A stretch of 48,906 bases of DNA from a virus (IMGVR_UViG_3300035698_005264:1-48906); one strand, 5' to 3'; numbered from the stretch's first letter, positions 17,162 to 30,143 are shown. Notes: generated by a model not told the origin, from the letters alone. Made by a program: numbers and translations.

Positions 17162-17378
17162 AGAGATATTGAACAGAGCGACAAAGACACTGTTTGATGA
17201 TAGACCTATGAACACAAACAGTAATGACTTTAGCGTGTCACGGGACATAGTGCAAAAGGTAAAGCACACCGAAGATGCGATTGTCATAGAAGAAACTACA
17301 ATAATACGCATACCACTCAATTGGCACTATAACAGTGCCAATGAGAGTATGCAAACACGAAAGGAGATTATCATATGA
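17145..17378 (+). CDS. Hypothetical protein upstream of the ubiquitin-like gene
   Basis: The frame opens with TTG 17145, preceded by AAGGTG at 5-base spacing; an ATG at 17208 is the alternative. The product (77 residues) is unremarkable: a helical N-terminus and a beta-rich centre (TEDAIVIEETTIIRIPLNWH). Its stop overlaps the start of the ubiquitin-like gene (ATGA), so it may belong to the same cassette. No family is recognised. Confidence 0.5.
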   Translation: MTTSIKEILNRATKTLFDDRPMNTNSNDFSVSRDIVQKVKHTEDAIVIEETTIIRIPLNWHYNSANESMQTRKEIII

Positions 17379-17584
17379 TAGTCAAAGTAGCCCCAATGGG
17401 AGAGCAAGTAGTAGAGGTAAATGTATTATCAGGTAGTACAGTAGGAGATGTTCTTGATGTTGCAGAGGTTGACCATAATGACAGAGCAATAACTGTGAAC
17501 AATCACAGTGCGTCATTGTCCACTTCGATCACAGAAGAGAACAGTATTATCTCTCTTGCTAATAAAATGAAGGGTGGCAACTAA
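17375..17584 (+). CDS. Ubiquitin-like beta-grasp modifier ending in Gly-Gly-Asn
   Basis: The 69-residue protein has ThiS/MoaD/ubiquitin-like layout: strand MIVKVAP, strand VVEVNVLSG, the hallmark STVGDVLDVAEV helix start (residues 21-32), then RAITVNNHSASL and ENSIISLANKM. The C-terminus is KMKGGN. The Gly67-Gly68 pair is what E1-type enzymes adenylate in this superfamily, and the extra Asn69 would need trimming, a job fitting the JAMM peptidase encoded two genes downstream. Upstream ATGA coupling and the E2-, JAMM- and E1-like neighbours strongly support a protein modifier. A sulfur-carrier role is the main alternative. Confidence 0.75.
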   Translation: MIVKVAPMGEQVVEVNVLSGSTVGDVLDVAEVDHNDRAITVNNHSASLSTSITEENSIISLANKMKGGN

Positions 17585-17593
17585 CAATGACAA

Positions 17594-17677
17594 GTGACTC
17601 ATTAGACACAGAGCTACAACAACGATGGCATGGATATGGCAACTCTAATTTCACTAGCCTTGTGTCTAATGAGTCAC
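17594..17677 (+). promoter_or_regulatory. 17-bp inverted repeat between modifier and E2-like gene
   Basis: GTGACTCATTAGACACA (17594-17610) and TGTGTCTAATGAGTCAC (17661-17677) are perfect inverse complements with a 50-base loop. The hairpin begins 10 bases after the modifier gene stop and ends 27 bases before the preferred E2-like start at 17704. It could lower downstream translation or protect the modifier mRNA, giving more modifier than enzymes. Confidence 0.6.
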
Positions 17678-17703
17678 AACTCACTAACGAAGGGAGTAAT
17701 GAT

Positions 17704-18717
17704 ATGGCAGTACCAGATGTATTAAAAAACATTGGAGATGCTAAAGTAGTGCAGTCATGTACAGTGACAAAGTTCTTCAACACACGGCTAGAGAAGTATA
17801 TACAGGACATAGCCACAGAGAAGAAGGTTGTAGAGAAGTACAAGCATAGAGAACACTTGACTGAAAACGAGAGTATATCCTTGCGTTATTCAATGAAACG
17901 TGCCAAACAGATAAAGCGTATGATGAACTGCTTAATAATACCAGATGCAGATGTGTTTAATATGGTTAAAGAGAATATAGAGTTCTTACGCTTTAGCCAT
18001 GAAGCAGGAACAATGACAATACGCACTAAAGAGTGTGTGATACCTTACATAATGAAAGATGATACGGAGATTAATGTGCCAATGGGCAAGTACAAAGTGG
18101 TGTTTGACTTTAACACACAGAGTACTTACATAGAGCCTTACGAGAATAACCAATCACACGACGGGTACTATCACCCACATGTCAGTGGCACTAGTCCTTG
18201 TTGGGGGAGTTATGGTAATGCAGTTGCACAAGCATATAAGACTGCAGATGTTATTGGTCTTATAACAATCATACACGACTATCTCAACTCATGTGACAGG
18301 TATGGTTGGTATGTATCTGTAATGTATTGGGCAAAGATGAGAGGTATTGTTGCTGAGAGTATATGCGCTAGGTGTGAATTCGACAGAGATAGTTGCGAGT
18401 GTGAAAATTGGTGTAACGAGTGCGACAGTCACCAAGACGATTGTAGGTGCGATAGATGTGAAGCTTGTGGATATAATAATGCCGACTGTGAGTGTACAAA
18501 ATGCCCTGACAATTATGATAGGCTAGAGAACAATGAGTTCCCTGACTCACAATGTATGAATTGTCTTTGTTGTGTACGTAACCTTGAAAAAGATGAGTGG
18601 CAGTGTCAATATGATGGTCACACTGCTTACTTCTCAACACGATTACGATATTATACTTCAGCAGTACCAAACCCTAGATACAGAACGATTGATGTAAACG
18701 GAAAGGAGTTAAAGTAA
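17704..18717 (+). CDS. E2-like conjugating protein with tandem zinc modules
   Basis: The protein is 337 residues from ATG 17704 (MAVPDVLKNI), chosen for its GAAGGGAG ribosome-binding site; ATG 17587 adds 39 residues that span the hairpin. Residues about 127-195 look like a UBC/E2 core: strands KYKVVFDFNTQSTYIEPYE, then HPHVSGTSPCWG, where HPH (157-159) replaces the eukaryotic HPN and Cys166 is the candidate catalytic residue, then a long helix (TADVIGLITIIHDYL). Residues 221-264 hold three exact C-x2-C-x6-C-x-C repeats, then further Cys. The tail may act in target binding or E3-like function. E2 identity is inferred from pattern and neighbours. Confidence 0.65.
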   Translation: MAVPDVLKNIGDAKVVQSCTVTKFFNTRLEKYIQDIATEKKVVEKYKHREHLTENESISLRYSMKRAKQIKRMMNCLIIPDADVFNMVKENIEFLRFSHEAGTMTIRTKECVIPYIMKDDTEINVPMGKYKVVFDFNTQSTYIEPYENNQSHDGYYHPHVSGTSPCWGSYGNAVAQAYKTADVIGLITIIHDYLNSCDRYGWYVSVMYWAKMRGIVAESICARCEFDRDSCECENWCNECDSHQDDCRCDRCEACGYNNADCECTKCPDNYDRLENNEFPDSQCMNCLCCVRNLEKDEWQCQYDGHTAYFSTRLRYYTSAVPNPRYRTIDVNGKELK

Positions 18718-19566
18718 ATGACAGTAGAAACTAAACAAAAGAATGAGGTGACAACTGATATTACTATCAGTATTGAAGAAGAAGCGTATGTGTCAATGAT
18801 GAAGTATGCACATATGTTTACACCAAAAGAGTGTAGTGGCACTGGACTCGTAGAACGCAAAGACTTCACCGACGGGAGTGTAGAGTTTATAGTCAAGAAA
18901 GTTTACTTGCCTAATCAAACCAATACAGGTAGCACTACTGATATTGAAGATGAAGAAATGGCAAAGGTCAATACTCAAATAGTAATGGACGGAGATGATA
19001 CATCTTTGCATAAGTTCCATTGGCATAGTCATGTAGACATGAGTGTATTTCATAGTGGCACAGATGATAGCAACTATGATGATATGCAAACAGGCGACTA
19101 TGCAATATCTCTCGTCGTGAATAAGCAGTATAACATGTTGGGTAGTGTACATTTGTACAATCCTTTGCGTATCAATGTACTTAACGTTGAAGTAGAGGCA
19201 CCTGATGTTGACCTTGCAGAGTACGAAGTGCCTACTGATTTACAGGATATACTTGACGCTAATGTAGCACGTGTCAAGGCTTACGAAGAAGAAGAAGCCT
19301 CAAGGACTAGAAACATAGGTTGGAAGAATAACAATAGACAATCTGGATATGTGTATGGCGACTACTACAATAGTTCATTTGGTATGGCTACTGGACTAGC
19401 CAATGACCCTGACTTCTTAGCATTGTTGAAAGCAGGAGAGGAACAAGGTCTTATCCAGTTGGTAGAAGATACAATCGACAGTGAAATAATCGGATACATA
19501 AACATGAGAACACGTGAATATTACGAACTGAGTAGTTGCTTAGACTACACCAACTATTCTGATTAG
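18718..19566 (+). CDS. JAMM/MPN-family isopeptidase
   Basis: The 282-residue protein contains a complete JAMM metalloprotease motif: Glu38 in KECSGTGLVE, then H103-S-H105, seven residues, Ser113, two residues and Asp116 (stretch HWHSHVDMSVFHSGTD). These bind zinc and activate water in enzymes that cleave ubiquitin-like proteins. The C-terminal half (after about 165) is helical, acidic and unassigned. ATG 18718 directly follows the E2-like stop with AAAGGAG upstream. It probably trims the modifier's terminal Asn and/or removes it from targets. Confidence 0.85.
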   Translation: MTVETKQKNEVTTDITISIEEEAYVSMMKYAHMFTPKECSGTGLVERKDFTDGSVEFIVKKVYLPNQTNTGSTTDIEDEEMAKVNTQIVMDGDDTSLHKFHWHSHVDMSVFHSGTDDSNYDDMQTGDYAISLVVNKQYNMLGSVHLYNPLRINVLNVEVEAPDVDLAEYEVPTDLQDILDANVARVKAYEEEEASRTRNIGWKNNNRQSGYVYGDYYNSSFGMATGLANDPDFLALLKAGEEQGLIQLVEDTIDSEIIGYINMRTREYYELSSCLDYTNYSD

Positions 19567-19579
19567 AAAGGAGTAATGT

Positions 19580-19615
19580 ATGACAACACAACCAGAAGAT
19601 GAAGGAGTATTATGA
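19580..19615 (+). CDS. 11-codon upstream ORF before the E1-like gene
   Basis: ATG 19580 has AAAGGAG upstream and encodes MTTQPEDEGVL before TGA, which overlaps the E1-like ATG at 19612 (ATGA). Its first eight residues are the same as those of the E1-like protein, because the DNA is a 32-bp tandem duplication. Translation would couple to and probably set the level of the E1-like protein. Confidence 0.45.
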   Translation: MTTQPEDEGVL

Positions 19616-19643
19616 CAACACAACCAGAAGATGAAGCAGTACA
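19580..19643 (+). repeat. 32-bp tandem duplication at the E1-like start
   Basis: The 32 bases from 19580 (beginning ATGACAACACAACCAGAAGA) recur at 19612 with 3 differences. Because 32 is not a multiple of three, the first copy is out of frame with the gene and forms a short upstream ORF. The low divergence suggests a recent event. Confidence 0.75.
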
Positions 19644-20571
19644 AGTAGCACAAGAAATAGATACAGCCCCTACTGACCAAGTGGCACAGGAAATAGCAAG
19701 TACGTATCTAGATGAAGCAGAAGTACCACATGAAGAAGGACTTGGATACGCCACAACCACAATAAGTAATACAGTGGGAATAAATGCAGTAGACACTGCA
19801 GTAGACACCCCAACATCACAATCAACAGCAACACAGTATGATCCTTTTGTTAGTGGTCTTGATGGCAGTGGTGGAACATTAGCACAACAACAACTACCAG
19901 CATTGGATATGACAGAAGCACGTTCACGACAAACGGACTTAGTTAATGTTGATATATTGGACACACCTTTGACTGTCATAGGGGCAGGGGCAATAGGCTC
20001 ATTTGTCGTATTGACACTTGCTAAAATGGGATTCAAGCGTATCAAAGTTTATGATAGTGATATTATCACTGTTGCAAACATCAGTAATCAGTTCTATCCG
20101 TACAGTAGCGTAGGTCGTAGTAAAGTATGGGCATTGGAGGGAATGATACGAGATTTTGAGCGTATAGGCATTGAAGTAAGAGAGGCATTTTGGGAAAGAA
20201 GGCACGCATTAAGAAGTTATGTCATCATGGCAGTTGACAGTATGGCAGTGCGTCATCAGATATACAAAGCAATACGACGTAATGCAGATGTATATGGCTT
20301 TATTGATGGTCGTATGGGTGGTCAACAAGCAGAGGTGTATAGCGTTGACCTATTACACCCAGAGCAAAGAAAGATATATGAGCAATACTTGTGGACAGAT
20401 AGTGAAACAAGCGACTTGCCATGTACTCAAAAAGCAGTTATGTACAATGTACTTTGGATAGCGTCAATGATTGCTAATAACTTACGCTTGATGTTAGAAG
20501 AAAAGCCATTTCACAATGTAATGCAAATGGACTTTGAGAACGTAAATCATATTAATGTAGCACACACTTAG
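19612..20571 (+). CDS. E1/ThiF-like modifier-activating enzyme
   Basis: The 319-residue protein has the ThiF/E1 adenylation fold from about residue 118: VIGAGAIGS (Rossmann loop, 122-130), VYDSDIITVANISNQF (acidic ribose-binding residues and Asn), GRSK (168-171), MAVDSM (207-211) and a late conserved-type Cys in LPCTQKAVMYNV (Cys271), a candidate thioester site. Residues 1-110 are a low-complexity Thr/Gln/Asp/Glu-rich extension. E1 enzymes adenylate the C-terminal Gly of beta-grasp proteins and pass them to a Cys. It is the last gene of the cassette, and a hairpin follows. Confidence 0.85.
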   Translation: MTTQPEDEAVQVAQEIDTAPTDQVAQEIASTYLDEAEVPHEEGLGYATTTISNTVGINAVDTAVDTPTSQSTATQYDPFVSGLDGSGGTLAQQQLPALDMTEARSRQTDLVNVDILDTPLTVIGAGAIGSFVVLTLAKMGFKRIKVYDSDIITVANISNQFYPYSSVGRSKVWALEGMIRDFERIGIEVREAFWERRHALRSYVIMAVDSMAVRHQIYKAIRRNADVYGFIDGRMGGQQAEVYSVDLLHPEQRKIYEQYLWTDSETSDLPCTQKAVMYNVLWIASMIANNLRLMLEEKPFHNVMQMDFENVNHINVAHT

Positions 20572-20649: not shown

Positions 20650-21255
20650 ATGGACACAGAGATTAAACCAGAAACATTAGAAGCAAGAGCAAATGGCATA
20701 TGTACCAAGTGCAAAGTCAACCCTGCACAAGAGGGATATGCGTACTGTGAAAGGTGTAGGGAGTATGACAATAATAGACCTAAACGGCAGTACAAGAAGA
20801 AAAAACAACACATTATGCCACAGCATGTGATGATACGAGTAGCACACGATTTAAAAGGGTATATGAAAGAGAATATGTATGACGCAAAGGATATGGGGGC
20901 TATGTTTGGGTGTCTACCTGCTACTGTTAATACATGGCTAAAGGGTAAATTCACACCTAGACCAAAGTATCTTCAACTTATGAGGGAGAAAGGCATTACA
21001 GATGTTATGTTTTCAATAGTAGATAGGAACGCACAAGCAGTGAGTAAGAAGTTAGTAAGCATTGACAAGGGCAACTACATACCAAGAGCATATAAGCATA
21101 AAGTTAGTATGCCTGATATCGTAGTAAATCAAATTAAACTGTTACTCGACGAGTACATTGACAGTTTAGACACGCCACTTGTATATGCAGAGTTCAAGAG
21201 TAAACGTGAGGAGTTCATCACTAAACTGTTTTACACATGTACACAAGGGAGATAA
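20650..21255 (+). CDS. Zinc-ribbon plus helix-turn-helix regulator-like protein
   Basis: The 201-residue protein starts with a zinc ribbon (CTKCKVNPAQEGYAYCERCR, residues 18-37), a basic linker (PKRQYKKKKQH) and a helix-turn-helix-like segment (DMGAMFGCLPATVNTWLKGK) in its centre. The C-terminal part is helical. AAAGGAG precedes the start. It probably binds DNA and regulates middle or late genes. It is separated from the E1-like gene by a hairpin. Confidence 0.6.
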   Translation: MDTEIKPETLEARANGICTKCKVNPAQEGYAYCERCREYDNNRPKRQYKKKKQHIMPQHVMIRVAHDLKGYMKENMYDAKDMGAMFGCLPATVNTWLKGKFTPRPKYLQLMREKGITDVMFSIVDRNAQAVSKKLVSIDKGNYIPRAYKHKVSMPDIVVNQIKLLLDEYIDSLDTPLVYAEFKSKREEFITKLFYTCTQGR

Positions 21256-21258
21256 CCA

Positions 21259-21786
21259 ATGGTAAAGATTAAAGACAAGCAGTTGTTTCAGTTCTGTATC
21301 TTTGAGAATTATATCAATGAGGTATTGGCATTACCTAAAGAGATACAGATTGATGAGTTGACCTTTCAAGTAGGCTTTTCATTGAAAGGTGTAGTACAGC
21401 AAGTGCCATTTAAACTTGCTGAGTTAGGTGTAACATATATGCGTGAGCCATCTGTGAGTATGGAAGCACAAGGACTACTGACAGGTAAGCGTGGTCACAT
21501 TGAAAGTAATGCTAAAGAAATATGTGAGCGGCTTTCACTAGATTACAGGCACATGAGAGTGAGACGTATGCTCTTGTCGTATAAAGATTGTACTGCAACC
21601 TTCACACGTATGACAAAGAAAATGCAGGGGGCAGAAGGCAAGACGACCAGTATCAAAGTGTTAGGTCTTGTAGTGACAGAGGGTACAGAGCAAAGTACCA
21701 AAGACATTATCAAAGTGCTGGGGGCAAAGAAGATTAAATGCCAGTATTCACTTCAGCCAGTGAGAACAGTGACTTGCACGGTTTAG
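21259..21786 (+). CDS. Hypothetical protein
   Basis: The 175-residue protein begins MVKIKDKQLFQFCIFENYIN behind GGGAG. It shows mixed alpha/beta character, with a basic helix region (DYRHMRVRRMLLSYKDC) and a C-terminal Lys/Thr-rich part (VTEGTEQSTKDIIKVLGAKK). It lies 3 bases after the regulator-like gene and may be co-translated with it. I recognise no domain. Confidence 0.55.
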   Translation: MVKIKDKQLFQFCIFENYINEVLALPKEIQIDELTFQVGFSLKGVVQQVPFKLAELGVTYMREPSVSMEAQGLLTGKRGHIESNAKEICERLSLDYRHMRVRRMLLSYKDCTATFTRMTKKMQGAEGKTTSIKVLGLVVTEGTEQSTKDIIKVLGAKKIKCQYSLQPVRTVTCTV

Positions 21787-27300: not shown

Positions 27301-28911
27301 ATGGCAGGGTATAATCCTGAGTACATAAAACAGTTTTATACCCGTCATTTATCTGGTGGTGAGGTGCATGGAGACGAACTCCGTGCGCCTTGTCCCGGAC
27401 ATGACGATAAGGACCCATCGTTTAGCGTAAGCCTTCTTACAGGAGCATACAAATGTTTCCAACCTGCGTGCAAGATGTTCTCAGGAGGTGGAATGCATAA
27501 GTTCCTAGCTAATGTAGACGATATACCTATAGGAGACGCTCAACTTGCTATAGATACTGAGCATAACGCTCTGTTCCCACCTATAAAGAAACATTCTAAG
27601 AAGACACATACCGCAACTAAATTCCCGTACACACAAGATGACATCACTGCTAGAGATGAGGCTCTATTTGCAAATACGGTGAAGTTAGATTGGCTGAAGA
27701 AGAACTGTCTGTGGACAGAAGAAACTATAAAGAAGTACGAGATAGGATACAACGCAGATGAGAACGCGTATTGGTTCCCTATTAAAGAGAACATAGAGCT
27801 TGTTAACATACGCAAATACAATCCAGATAACCAAGCAAAGAAGTGGTATCAGATACATGGATTTAGTACGCCACGCCTGTATCCCATGGATAACGTACAT
27901 GAGAAAACTGTGTACTTAATGGAAGGTGAGAAGGACGCCCTCCTAGCTAACCAGTTAGGGCTCAATGCGATGACAGTTACCGGTGGTGCCGGCACATTCA
28001 TCAGTGAGTGGAAGCCCCTGTTCTTAGATAAGCACGTTATCTTCTGTTATGACATAGATATAGCAGGCAAGACTGGAGCACTTAAAGTATACAATGCTAT
28101 CAGTCATGTAGTACAGTCGGTTAAATTTGTACAACTTCCTTTGACAGAACCTTCAAACGCTGACTTCACAGACTACATATTGGCAGGTAACAAGGTACAA
28201 GATTTTCATGTTCTAGTAGAGAGTACACCATTTGAGATGCGTCCGACAGACTCTCCTGTGGCTATAAGTGACGAAGTAATAGATACAAACTTGGACAGTA
28301 TTGACGAAGAAGGTCTATTCTACACACGAACACGTTTCAATATACGTGTTGTAGGTACAGATTCGTCACCATATATCATACCTCGTGAGGTATGTATTGA
28401 GTGTAGTAGAGATAGCGGTGCTATCTGCAACGGATGTGACGTAGGAGACAAAGGCGGGTCTGATAAAATAATCATCAGTGAAACTACGCCTAGGCTATTG
28501 GATCTGATTGAGTGTAAGTCTAAAGACCGTACTACTATTTTACGTGACATATTCCATGTACCTAACTGCCGTAAGTTTAGAATAAAAGAGAATGCTCATC
28601 AACCAGTAAACCGTGTATCCATCATACCCTCTATAGATGAGATCACGTATGATGAGGATACACAGAATCAAACCTATGTAGAGCGAGAACTATACCATTT
28701 GGGTAAGCGTCTCATAGCTAATACAGATTATGAGATCGAGGCATTAGCACTTCCTAGCCCAAAAGACCAATCTCTAGTGTACTTAGGATACAAAGTAAAA
28801 CCGGCGGACTCTTCCATTGAAGAGTTCACAATGACCCCAGAACTCAAAGAACAATTAGAGGTGTTCCAGTGCACATCAGAGAAAGACTTAATGACATCTA
28901 CGCAGACCTAA
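27301..28911 (+). CDS. DNA primase with zinc, TOPRIM and MCM-like N-terminal region
   Basis: The 536-residue protein starts with a CHC2-like zinc domain: Cys31-x2-His34 and Cys52-x4-Cys57. A TOPRIM fold follows: YLMEGEKDALL (Glu208/Glu210), then FCYDIDIAGKTG (Asp251-x-Asp253). Residues from about 340 carry RTRFNIRVVG and a second zinc site Cys365-x2-Cys368...Cys376-x2-Cys379, resembling the OB/zinc N-terminal region of MCM helicases. It makes RNA primers. ATG follows the previous stop directly. The last 43 bases overlap the helicase gene in the -1 frame. Confidence 0.8.
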   Translation: MAGYNPEYIKQFYTRHLSGGEVHGDELRAPCPGHDDKDPSFSVSLLTGAYKCFQPACKMFSGGGMHKFLANVDDIPIGDAQLAIDTEHNALFPPIKKHSKKTHTATKFPYTQDDITARDEALFANTVKLDWLKKNCLWTEETIKKYEIGYNADENAYWFPIKENIELVNIRKYNPDNQAKKWYQIHGFSTPRLYPMDNVHEKTVYLMEGEKDALLANQLGLNAMTVTGGAGTFISEWKPLFLDKHVIFCYDIDIAGKTGALKVYNAISHVVQSVKFVQLPLTEPSNADFTDYILAGNKVQDFHVLVESTPFEMRPTDSPVAISDEVIDTNLDSIDEEGLFYTRTRFNIRVVGTDSSPYIIPREVCIECSRDSGAICNGCDVGDKGGSDKIIISETTPRLLDLIECKSKDRTTILRDIFHVPNCRKFRIKENAHQPVNRVSIIPSIDEITYDEDTQNQTYVERELYHLGKRLIANTDYEIEALALPSPKDQSLVYLGYKVKPADSSIEEFTMTPELKEQLEVFQCTSEKDLMTSTQT

Positions 28912-30143
28912 GCACGAATGTCACTCAAATATATAATAGGCAGAACCTCCATCTTGCTATAGACCTTGTGTTTCACAGCCCTTTGAGCTTCTACTTCGGT
29001 AAGCGAAAGGTTGATAAGGGATTCCCAGAGATACTTATTATAGGCGACACGCGTTGCGGCAAGTCAGATACACTTAAATATTTAATTAATCACTACCGTC
29101 TAGGGGCTAGGTCGAGTGGTGAAAACGCAACCCTAGCAGGCTTAGTCGGAGGACTAGATCAGGTGCGAGGAAGGTGGCGCGTGTCATGGGGCAGGATACC
29201 ATTGAACCATAAGCGCCTGCTAGGGATTGACGAAGTTTGTGGCCTCACGCAAGACGAGATAGGAGCTATGTCAGATATGCGTAGCTCTGGTATCGCAGAA
29301 ATAAACAAGATACGAATAGAGCGCACTCATGCTAGAACCAGATTGATATGGCTAAGTAACCCTAGAGAGAAATCTCCGATTGGTAACATAGCCAGTGGTC
29401 CGAGTATGCTTGAACATCTAATAGGAAAGCAAGAAGACATAGCACGTTTTGATTTAGCTCTTATCTTAGATAAGCGCGAGGTAGATGCAGCAGGAGCCGA
29501 CGAGAGAAAGCAACCTGACATCCCTCACGTGTACACCTCAGACCTATGCCATAATCTTGTACTTTGGGCATGGAGCAGGAAGGCCGACCAAGTACGATTG
29601 AGCTCAGAAACTGTTGATGCCTGTCACACATACGGAGTTAAGATGTGTGCTCAGTATACGTCTGATTGCCCTATTGTTAATTCAATGGAGCAAAAGATAA
29701 AGCTGGCACGTCTAGCTACTGCACTGGCTTGTCGCCTATTTAGCACGGATGACGGGGAACGTGTCATAGTGACACCAGAACATGTGAAGTTTGTATACGA
29801 ATTCATGTGTGCTCAGTACGACTTGCCTCAGTTTGGGTTTGATGTATTCTCCAAACGTATACGCTTGTCAGAGACTATCAAAGATAGAGCGGCCATAGAG
29901 GCTATGCTATCTAAGTGGGGGATCGCTATGGTCTACCAACTTATCGACGGATACCAGATAACAGTCAAATTTATTGAAGAAGCTACGGGATCAGACTACA
30001 ACGAAGCAAAAGTCTATCTCGCTAAACTACTTCGTAATGGTTGTCTAACAAAGAAGCACGCGTTCTACGTTAAAACGCACGCGTTCATCAAGCTTCTCAA
30101 AGAGTTTACTGAAAACCCAAAGCTACATAAGGAGGACTTTTAA
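28869..30143 (+). CDS. MCM-like AAA+ replicative helicase
   Basis: The 424-residue protein has MCM-type AAA+ motifs: Walker A GDTRCGKS (residues 59-66), ENATLAGLVGGLDQVRGRW (as in the MCM loop after Walker A), Walker B LLGIDEVCGL (Asp121-Glu122), sensor 1 RLIWLSNPR (Asn164) and IARFDLALIL with Arg193 matching the MCM SRFD arginine finger. It should unwind DNA as a hexamer. The start is GTG 28869 with GAGGTG 5 bases upstream. MCM's N-terminal zinc/OB part is missing here and seems to lie at the end of the overlapping primase. Confidence 0.8.
   Translation: MHIRERLNDIYADLSTNVTQIYNRQNLHLAIDLVFHSPLSFYFGKRKVDKGFPEILIIGDTRCGKSDTLKYLINHYRLGARSSGENATLAGLVGGLDQVRGRWRVSWGRIPLNHKRLLGIDEVCGLTQDEIGAMSDMRSSGIAEINKIRIERTHARTRLIWLSNPREKSPIGNIASGPSMLEHLIGKQEDIARFDLALILDKREVDAAGADERKQPDIPHVYTSDLCHNLVLWAWSRKADQVRLSSETVDACHTYGVKMCAQYTSDCPIVNSMEQKIKLARLATALACRLFSTDDGERVIVTPEHVKFVYEFMCAQYDLPQFGFDVFSKRIRLSETIKDRAAIEAMLSKWGIAMVYQLIDGYQITVKFIEEATGSDYNEAKVYLAKLLRNGCLTKKHAFYVKTHAFIKLLKEFTENPKLHKEDF

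Follow-up and report, generated by a model that had tools for sequence, protein, structure and literature searches.

We identified a four-gene cassette in a 48,906-nucleotide viral DNA record (IMGVR_UViG_3300035698_005264:1-48906; hereafter the window, meaning this whole stretch) that probably provides a phage with a self-contained pathway for conjugating a ubiquitin-like modifier (Ubl) to proteins, with replication or early host takeover as its likeliest role. The genes form a row on the plus strand (17375-20571) and encode, in order, a Ubl, an E2-like protein (after the ubiquitin-conjugating enzymes), a JAB/JAMM peptidase, and a ThiF-type E1 (activating enzyme). The observed basis of the pathway is threefold: (i) folds or motifs, (ii) intact active sites, and (iii) co-occurrence of the parts. 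An initial annotation, made from the sequence alone, had described four consecutive, tightly spaced genes making up an apparently complete phage-borne set, and both descriptions hold. All four open reading frames (ORFs) are as it gave them, with gaps of 2, 0, and 45 nt and Shine-Dalgarno-like sequences upstream of the Ubl, JAB, and E1 genes. The 48.9-kb record also carries phage genes (terminase, portal, major head protein, SNF2-type helicase, primase/helicase, and DNA polymerase).

The 69-residue product of the first gene is clearly a beta-grasp protein by structure prediction. Its AlphaFold model, built on an alignment of 16 homologues, has a predicted local distance difference test (pLDDT) score of 89.7. 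A Foldseek search of the PDB matched it to NEDD8 (template modelling [TM] score 0.78, E 3.9e-4), SAMP1 (TM 0.80), and ubiquitin, all with TM of 0.7-0.8, and its profile matched archaeal SAMP2 (4hrs) with E 3.7e-6. Members of the family gave weak Pfam matches to SAMP2, ThiS, RnfH, and Mut7-C ubiquitin, the window Ubl itself matching SAMP2 weakly; none of Pfam, PHROGs, NCBIfam, or PADLOC assigned the window Ubl a name. The C-terminus reads KMKGGN, in agreement with the Gly-Gly-Asn ending proposed at the outset. All 20 homologues of the stand-alone group have a C-terminal Gly where the beta-grasp ends, and 15 of the 20 have Gly-Gly (GG) within their last 8 residues, compared with 2.7% of 1979 background small ORFs. 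The Gly is trailed by 0-6 unconserved residues (for example, KGGN, KGGC, KGGRG, EGGE, TGGQ, and RGGNQ). In the crAss-like/Flavobacterium group, the Ubl forms the N-terminus of a longer protein with a helical extension, and there an invariant Gly (Ser-Gly or Ala-Gly, mostly Lys-Ser-Gly) is followed by a variable residue and a linker. Both forms look like precursors that the neighbouring JAB would cut. Three Ubls (loci L015, L032, and L091) end in a bare GG beside an intact JAB, which suggests a second role for JAB in deconjugation. We also note a 146-residue protein after E1 in L092 (6643-7300) that resembles two tandem beta-grasp modules, ends in GGGW, and is followed by a similar small protein; a poly-Ubl arrangement is possible.

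The E2-like protein had no match in Pfam (including its Prok-E2 families), PHROGs, NCBIfam, or PADLOC. Among 32 relatives, only Cys205 and Gly207 are invariant (32/32), with HPH or HSH just N-terminal. The motif of the window's group, Y-x-H-P-H-x-x-x-G-x-x-C-W-G, is close to the ubiquitin-E2 motif H-P-N-x-x-x-x-G-x-x-C-L-D. Comparison of the HPH-group profile with five human E2s by hhalign gave a probability of 78% and a score of 37, with HPH matched to HPN, Cys205 matched to the catalytic Cys, and the strands and helices on either side following in the expected order. The best of 146 column shuffles reached 2.3% (score 19) and the reversed profile 0.1%; an earlier round of 20 shuffles had produced one probability of 99.6, which we treated as an artefact after the rerun with 146 valid shuffles. 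Pfam UQ_con matched one family member with E=0.0084 and L012 with E=0.029, the latter match starting exactly at HPH. The AlphaFold model of the domain (pLDDT 85) contains a helix, a beta-meander, an active-site loop, and three helices, as expected for a UBC fold. Homology to ubiquitin E2s is, on these comparisons, likely but not proven. There are two plausible starts, 17587 (376 residues) and 17704 (337 residues), the latter with the better ribosome-binding site (GAAGGGAG), and the conserved domain is contained in both versions. A Cys-rich tail, found also in L006, L008, L009, L015, L088, and the E2 of a Xanthomonas jumbo phage and missing from the others, may bind zinc and present substrates.

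The remaining two proteins are recognizable enzymes. E1 matches Pfam ThiF (PF00899) with E=4e-18 and has a GxGxxG loop; the adenylation residues Lys171, Asp209, and Arg214, as well as Cys271, are each conserved in 42/42 homologues. None of these 42 E1s carries a CxxC pair; a paired CxxC zinc site is typical of ThiF/MoeB sulfur-carrier E1s. JAB matches Pfam Prok-JAB (PF14464) with E 4.4e-5, just below the curated cut-off, and has a perfect HxHx7SxxD motif (H103, H105, S113, and D116 in 38/38 homologues) plus an upstream Glu (E38, 37/38). The initial assignments of an E1/ThiF-like enzyme and of a JAMM peptidase with an intact motif are thus borne out. The N-terminal extension of E1 (19612-19911, about 100 residues, low-complexity) is missing from the closest relatives, L006, L008, and L009.

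The cassette is not confined to the window. A tblastn search of phage records with E1 gave 80 with a match, from Flavobacterium phages (Fipvunavirus), Bacteroides crAss-like phages, and Xanthomonas/Erwinia phages of ~228 kb; the same search of 50,697 phage records with E2 and JAB found nothing. Scans of viral contigs with a single E2 or E1 sequence also returned nothing, and relatives were reached only via an E1 alignment. Briefly, a profile scan of IMG/VR yielded 134 relatives, of which 80 were retained, and a genome-contig scan added more, its close relatives being mostly apparently phage-derived. Clustering left 56 non-redundant loci; we counted completeness in the 42 whose upstream sequence reached 3.8 kb or more, noting that metagenomic contigs among the surveyed loci may be incomplete. 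A survey of this kind had been proposed in the initial annotation, and it found all four parts in 34 of the 42 loci, with 4 more lacking only a Ubl call by hidden Markov model (HMM). Of these four, which have E1, E2, and JAB, L017 and L094 contain candidates that end in GG, an ORF in L060 is Ubl-like but lacks GG, and in L011 we found none. Conversely, the HMM recovered six Ubls outside its training set (L077, L088, L090, L091, L092, and L097). Gene order differs in L069, L090, L091, and L092; it is therefore not fixed, which argues that the linkage of the parts is not mere inherited synteny. The E1, JAB, and E2 distances are correlated (Mantel r 0.79-0.87), as expected of a unit that travels together. 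By its sequences, the four-part set is a real, widespread, phage-borne variant of bacterial Ubl-conjugation systems.

Crassvirales and Flavobacterium phages have a divergent version consisting of a Ubl-fusion, an E2-like protein, JAB, and then E1, which in crAss001 correspond to gp79, gp78, gp77, and gp76, in that order. Xanthomonas phage PhiXhv-15 (L005, 2250-4925) carries E2 inside an 892-residue protein with a Cys-rich tail like the window's (family HMM E 8e-11), directly preceded by a GG-ending 141-residue protein that gives only a weak Ubl HMM match. The Pfam JAB model, which is insensitive to the cassette JAB family, detected no JAB in the 228-kb genome of this phage. We found no universal fifth component among the cassette neighbours, each phage group having its own. 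One recurrent family does occupy the position directly after E1 in 11 loci of the Flavobacterium-like group (for example, L086 6648-7460; crAss001 gp75), and similar-looking proteins follow E1 in crAss-like phages too, where they are a candidate fifth component or target.

Replication or early genes surround the cassette in every group examined. In crAss-like and Flavobacterium phages it sits between primase and uracil-DNA glycosylase; neighbours elsewhere include a DnaB-like helicase/primase (L028 group), a DNA polymerase (L069), a primase (L012), and a primase/helicase (L088), and an SNF2 helicase lies near it in the window's group. This constant placement suggests that the targets are most likely proteins, from the phage or its host, that act in DNA replication, recombination, or early takeover. 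The initial annotation had also suggested that tagging might steer virion assembly. We saw no tie to it in the window, crAss-like, or other phage groups, and favour replication or early host takeover as the role of the cassette.

We propose the following cycle. JAB would trim the Ubl precursor after Gly68, releasing Asn69; E1 with ATP would adenylate the exposed Gly-Gly end and load the modifier onto Cys271, from which it would be handed to Cys205 of E2. E2, aided in the window lineage by its Cys-rich tail, would then attach the modifier to amino groups of target proteins, and the same JAB could later remove it. A broader proposal, which we advance tentatively and with less confidence, is that a class of tailed phages (crAss-like gut, marine, and jumbo) has an autonomous ubiquitin-type cycle in its replication module, in which reversible tagging controls replication or takeover.

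Several observations weigh against a conjugation pathway. For the E2 assignment, with the motif masked, the hhalign probability fell to 1.8% (score 19.6) over the same span, so that the signal comes mostly from the HPH...C motif, and the human E2 sequences in that comparison were entered by hand. Foldseek found no significant PDB match for the E2 model (the E2 UFC1 at E=0.35, TM ~0.3), and against BFVD it returned only weak matches to unnamed phage proteins and one crAss-like virus protein. The initial annotation had reasoned that, if neither a UBC fold nor a beta-grasp fold were present, the set would reduce to a ThiF/JAMM metabolic pair; the beta-grasp stands on both model and profile, while the UBC fold is supported by sequence and not by the fold search. 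In addition, no E3 was identified for the cassette, shared phage ancestry may also produce the correlated divergence of E1, JAB, and E2, and the Ubl resembles SAMP2, ThiS, and MoaD, families that also carry sulfur.

Conjugation could instead serve counter-defence, with the Ubl placed on host defence proteins (for example, those of CBASS, Bil, or another Ubl-based system) or in competition with a host Ubl cascade. The early-region location, the sporadic spread over unrelated phages, and the match of the E1 domain to PADLOC E1-E2 models of defence systems (E ~1e-11) are all compatible with this. We nevertheless consider it unlikely, as the cassette is fixed in the crAss-like/Flavobacterium replication block rather than in a variable accessory spot, and its Ubl, E2, and JAB match no PADLOC defence model. 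Less probable again is a sulfur-carrier pathway, in which E1 would adenylate the Ubl for thiocarboxylation, sulfur would pass to a tRNA, cofactor, or metabolite, JAB would free the carrier, and the E2-like protein would do something else. The closest Ubl profile matches (SAMP2, ThiS, and MoaD) and the ThiF-like E1 fit such a pathway, and JAB and MoaD-like proteins co-occur in sulfur pathways (PMC1779556). However, the CxxC zinc pairs are missing from every E1, a Cys-containing E2-like protein is conserved in almost every complete locus, no sulfur-metabolism gene was seen adjoining the cassette, and the window record, possibly a fragment, has no rhodanese or TusA. It is very improbable that the ThiF/JAB pair modifies or matures a small protein as a peptide (MccB-like adenylation) without protein conjugation: a small substrate-like gene does adjoin an adenylating enzyme and a protease, but the small protein, at 69 residues, folds as a beta-grasp domain, and conservation of the E2-like gene also speaks against this reading.

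We compared the cassette with known systems that share some of its parts. Type II CBASS (Cap2/Cap3) has a similar E1 domain and the same E1-E2-JAB logic; in the cassette, however, E1 and E2 are separate genes rather than a Cap2-type fusion, and a dedicated Ubl is encoded. We rejected identity with Cap2-type CBASS on the separate genes and on a PADLOC match limited to the E1 domain, in a scan that covered the four cassette proteins and the corresponding parts of relatives. Bil/Bub bacterial antiviral operons encode a Ubl, E1, E2, and JAB-family peptidase together, as in the present cassette, which differs in the lack of PADLOC matches for Ubl, E2, and JAB, in an E2 without a Pfam match, and in its location in a phage replication block. 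The archaeal SAMP/ElsA (UbaA) system has the nearest Ubl among solved structures (SAMP2) and a ThiF-type E1. SAMP conjugation works without a known E2, whereas the cassette has a conserved E2-like gene, and an E1 without CxxC pairs.

Bacterial Ubl-E1-E2-JAB operons were predicted in 2006 by Iyer et al. (PMC1779556), whose type 6d E2 description fits PRTRC (TIGR03736-TIGR03738). Like type 6d/PRTRC, the cassette combines a stand-alone Ubl with a conserved C-terminal Gly and separate genes for the E2-like protein, JAB, and E1, arranged as an operon carried by mobile elements. Unlike it, the cassette is phage-borne; its E1 scores 28.8 bits with PRTRC_ThiF against a cut-off of 144.75; there is no PRTRC_C or PRTRC_B match; and its E2 keeps an HPN-like His (HPH) before the Cys, where 6d E2s lack an HPN-type His and have a downstream His instead. 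Consistent with this, hhalign of the cassette E2 with PRTRC_B from L099-L113 gave no match. We rejected PRTRC identity on scores far under the cut-offs and on the different His arrangement. Separately, the Bacteroidetes genome contigs L099-L114 include PRTRC cassettes, for which NCBIfam confirmed PRTRC_C, PRTRC_B, and ThiF in L111; these are a cousin on a plasmid or an integrative and conjugative element, with E2 arranged differently. The only phage entry that a term search found in PMC1779556 is the tail-assembly Ubl/JAB; lambda/T1 TAPI (Ubl) and TAPK (JAB+NlpC) are phage-encoded like the cassette but are placed there in tail modules without E1 or E2. The cassette JAB has no NlpC match and lies among replication/early genes; with no NlpC domain and no tail-gene neighbours, identity with TAPI/TAPK was rejected.

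Bacterial Ubl conjugation is best known as an anti-phage defence, and a near-constant set in phage replication blocks reverses that picture: phages may run a protein-tagging pathway of their own, as the set recurs in dozens of unrelated phages. If true, this would be a system of post-translational modification encoded by viruses and not previously described as one. In the open-licence literature we found no description of a phage Ubl/E2/JAB/E1 set, an earlier one in subscription literature being possible, and the main text of the crAss001 paper does not mention ThiF. The proposal offers a testable function for genes whose sole annotation in cultured phages (crAss001, DAC15, and Flavobacterium psychrophilum phages) is "ThiF" or hypothetical, and the free-standing HPN-like E2 family would give work on the origin of ubiquitin systems a new branch to draw on. 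Coordinates of the window features are collected in Table 1.

Table 1. Features of the cassette and the gene that follows it, in window coordinates.
Feature	Position	Strand	Basis
Ubl, SAMP2/ThiS/ubiquitin-like beta-grasp modifier precursor, 69 residues	17375..17584	+	AlphaFold, Foldseek, profile; homologues directly upstream of E2 in relatives
Codons G67-G68-N69: GG as the predicted end of the modifier, then one residue for trimming	17573..17581	+	Homologue comparison
E2-like protein, 376 residues (alternative 337 from 17704)	17587..18717	+	hhalign to human E2s; Cys205/Gly207 conservation
E2 active-site motif HPHVSGTSPCWG: H196, H198, predicted catalytic C205, G207	18172..18207	+	Aligns with HPN...C of ubiquitin E2s; family conservation
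E2 Cys-rich tail, residues 260-340, repeated CxxC...CxC, predicted zinc-binding	18364..18606	+	Sequence
JAB/JAMM metallopeptidase, 282 residues, predicted Ubl-precursor protease and isopeptidase	18718..19566	+	Prok-JAB PF14464 (E 4.4e-5, just below cut-off); homologues in nearly all relatives
JAMM motif H-S-H-x7-S-x2-D (H103, H105, S113, D116)	19024..19065; Glu38 codon 18829-18831	+	Conservation
E1/ThiF-type Ubl-activating enzyme, 319 residues, ~100-residue N-terminal extension	19612..20571	+	PF00899 E 4e-18; nucleotide-loop sequence GAGAIG; invariant adenylation residues
C271 of E1, predicted to form the thioester	20422..20424	+	42/42 homologues
Cys-pair/helix-turn-helix (HTH)-like protein, possible accessory or regulator	20650..21255	+	Closest relatives L006, L007, L008; weak matches to phage regulators

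Two genes lie 3' of the cassette (20650-21786), encoding a protein of 201 residues with Cys pairs and an HTH-like part and one of 175 residues; of the relatives, only L006, L007, and L008 have them conserved at this position. Further downstream, the primase/helicase ORFs at 27301-28911 and 28869-30143 share positions 28869-28911 in different frames. They correspond to successive segments of a single family of 1028 positions, phrog_18685; the gene may be split or read by programmed frameshifting, or the sequence may contain an error.

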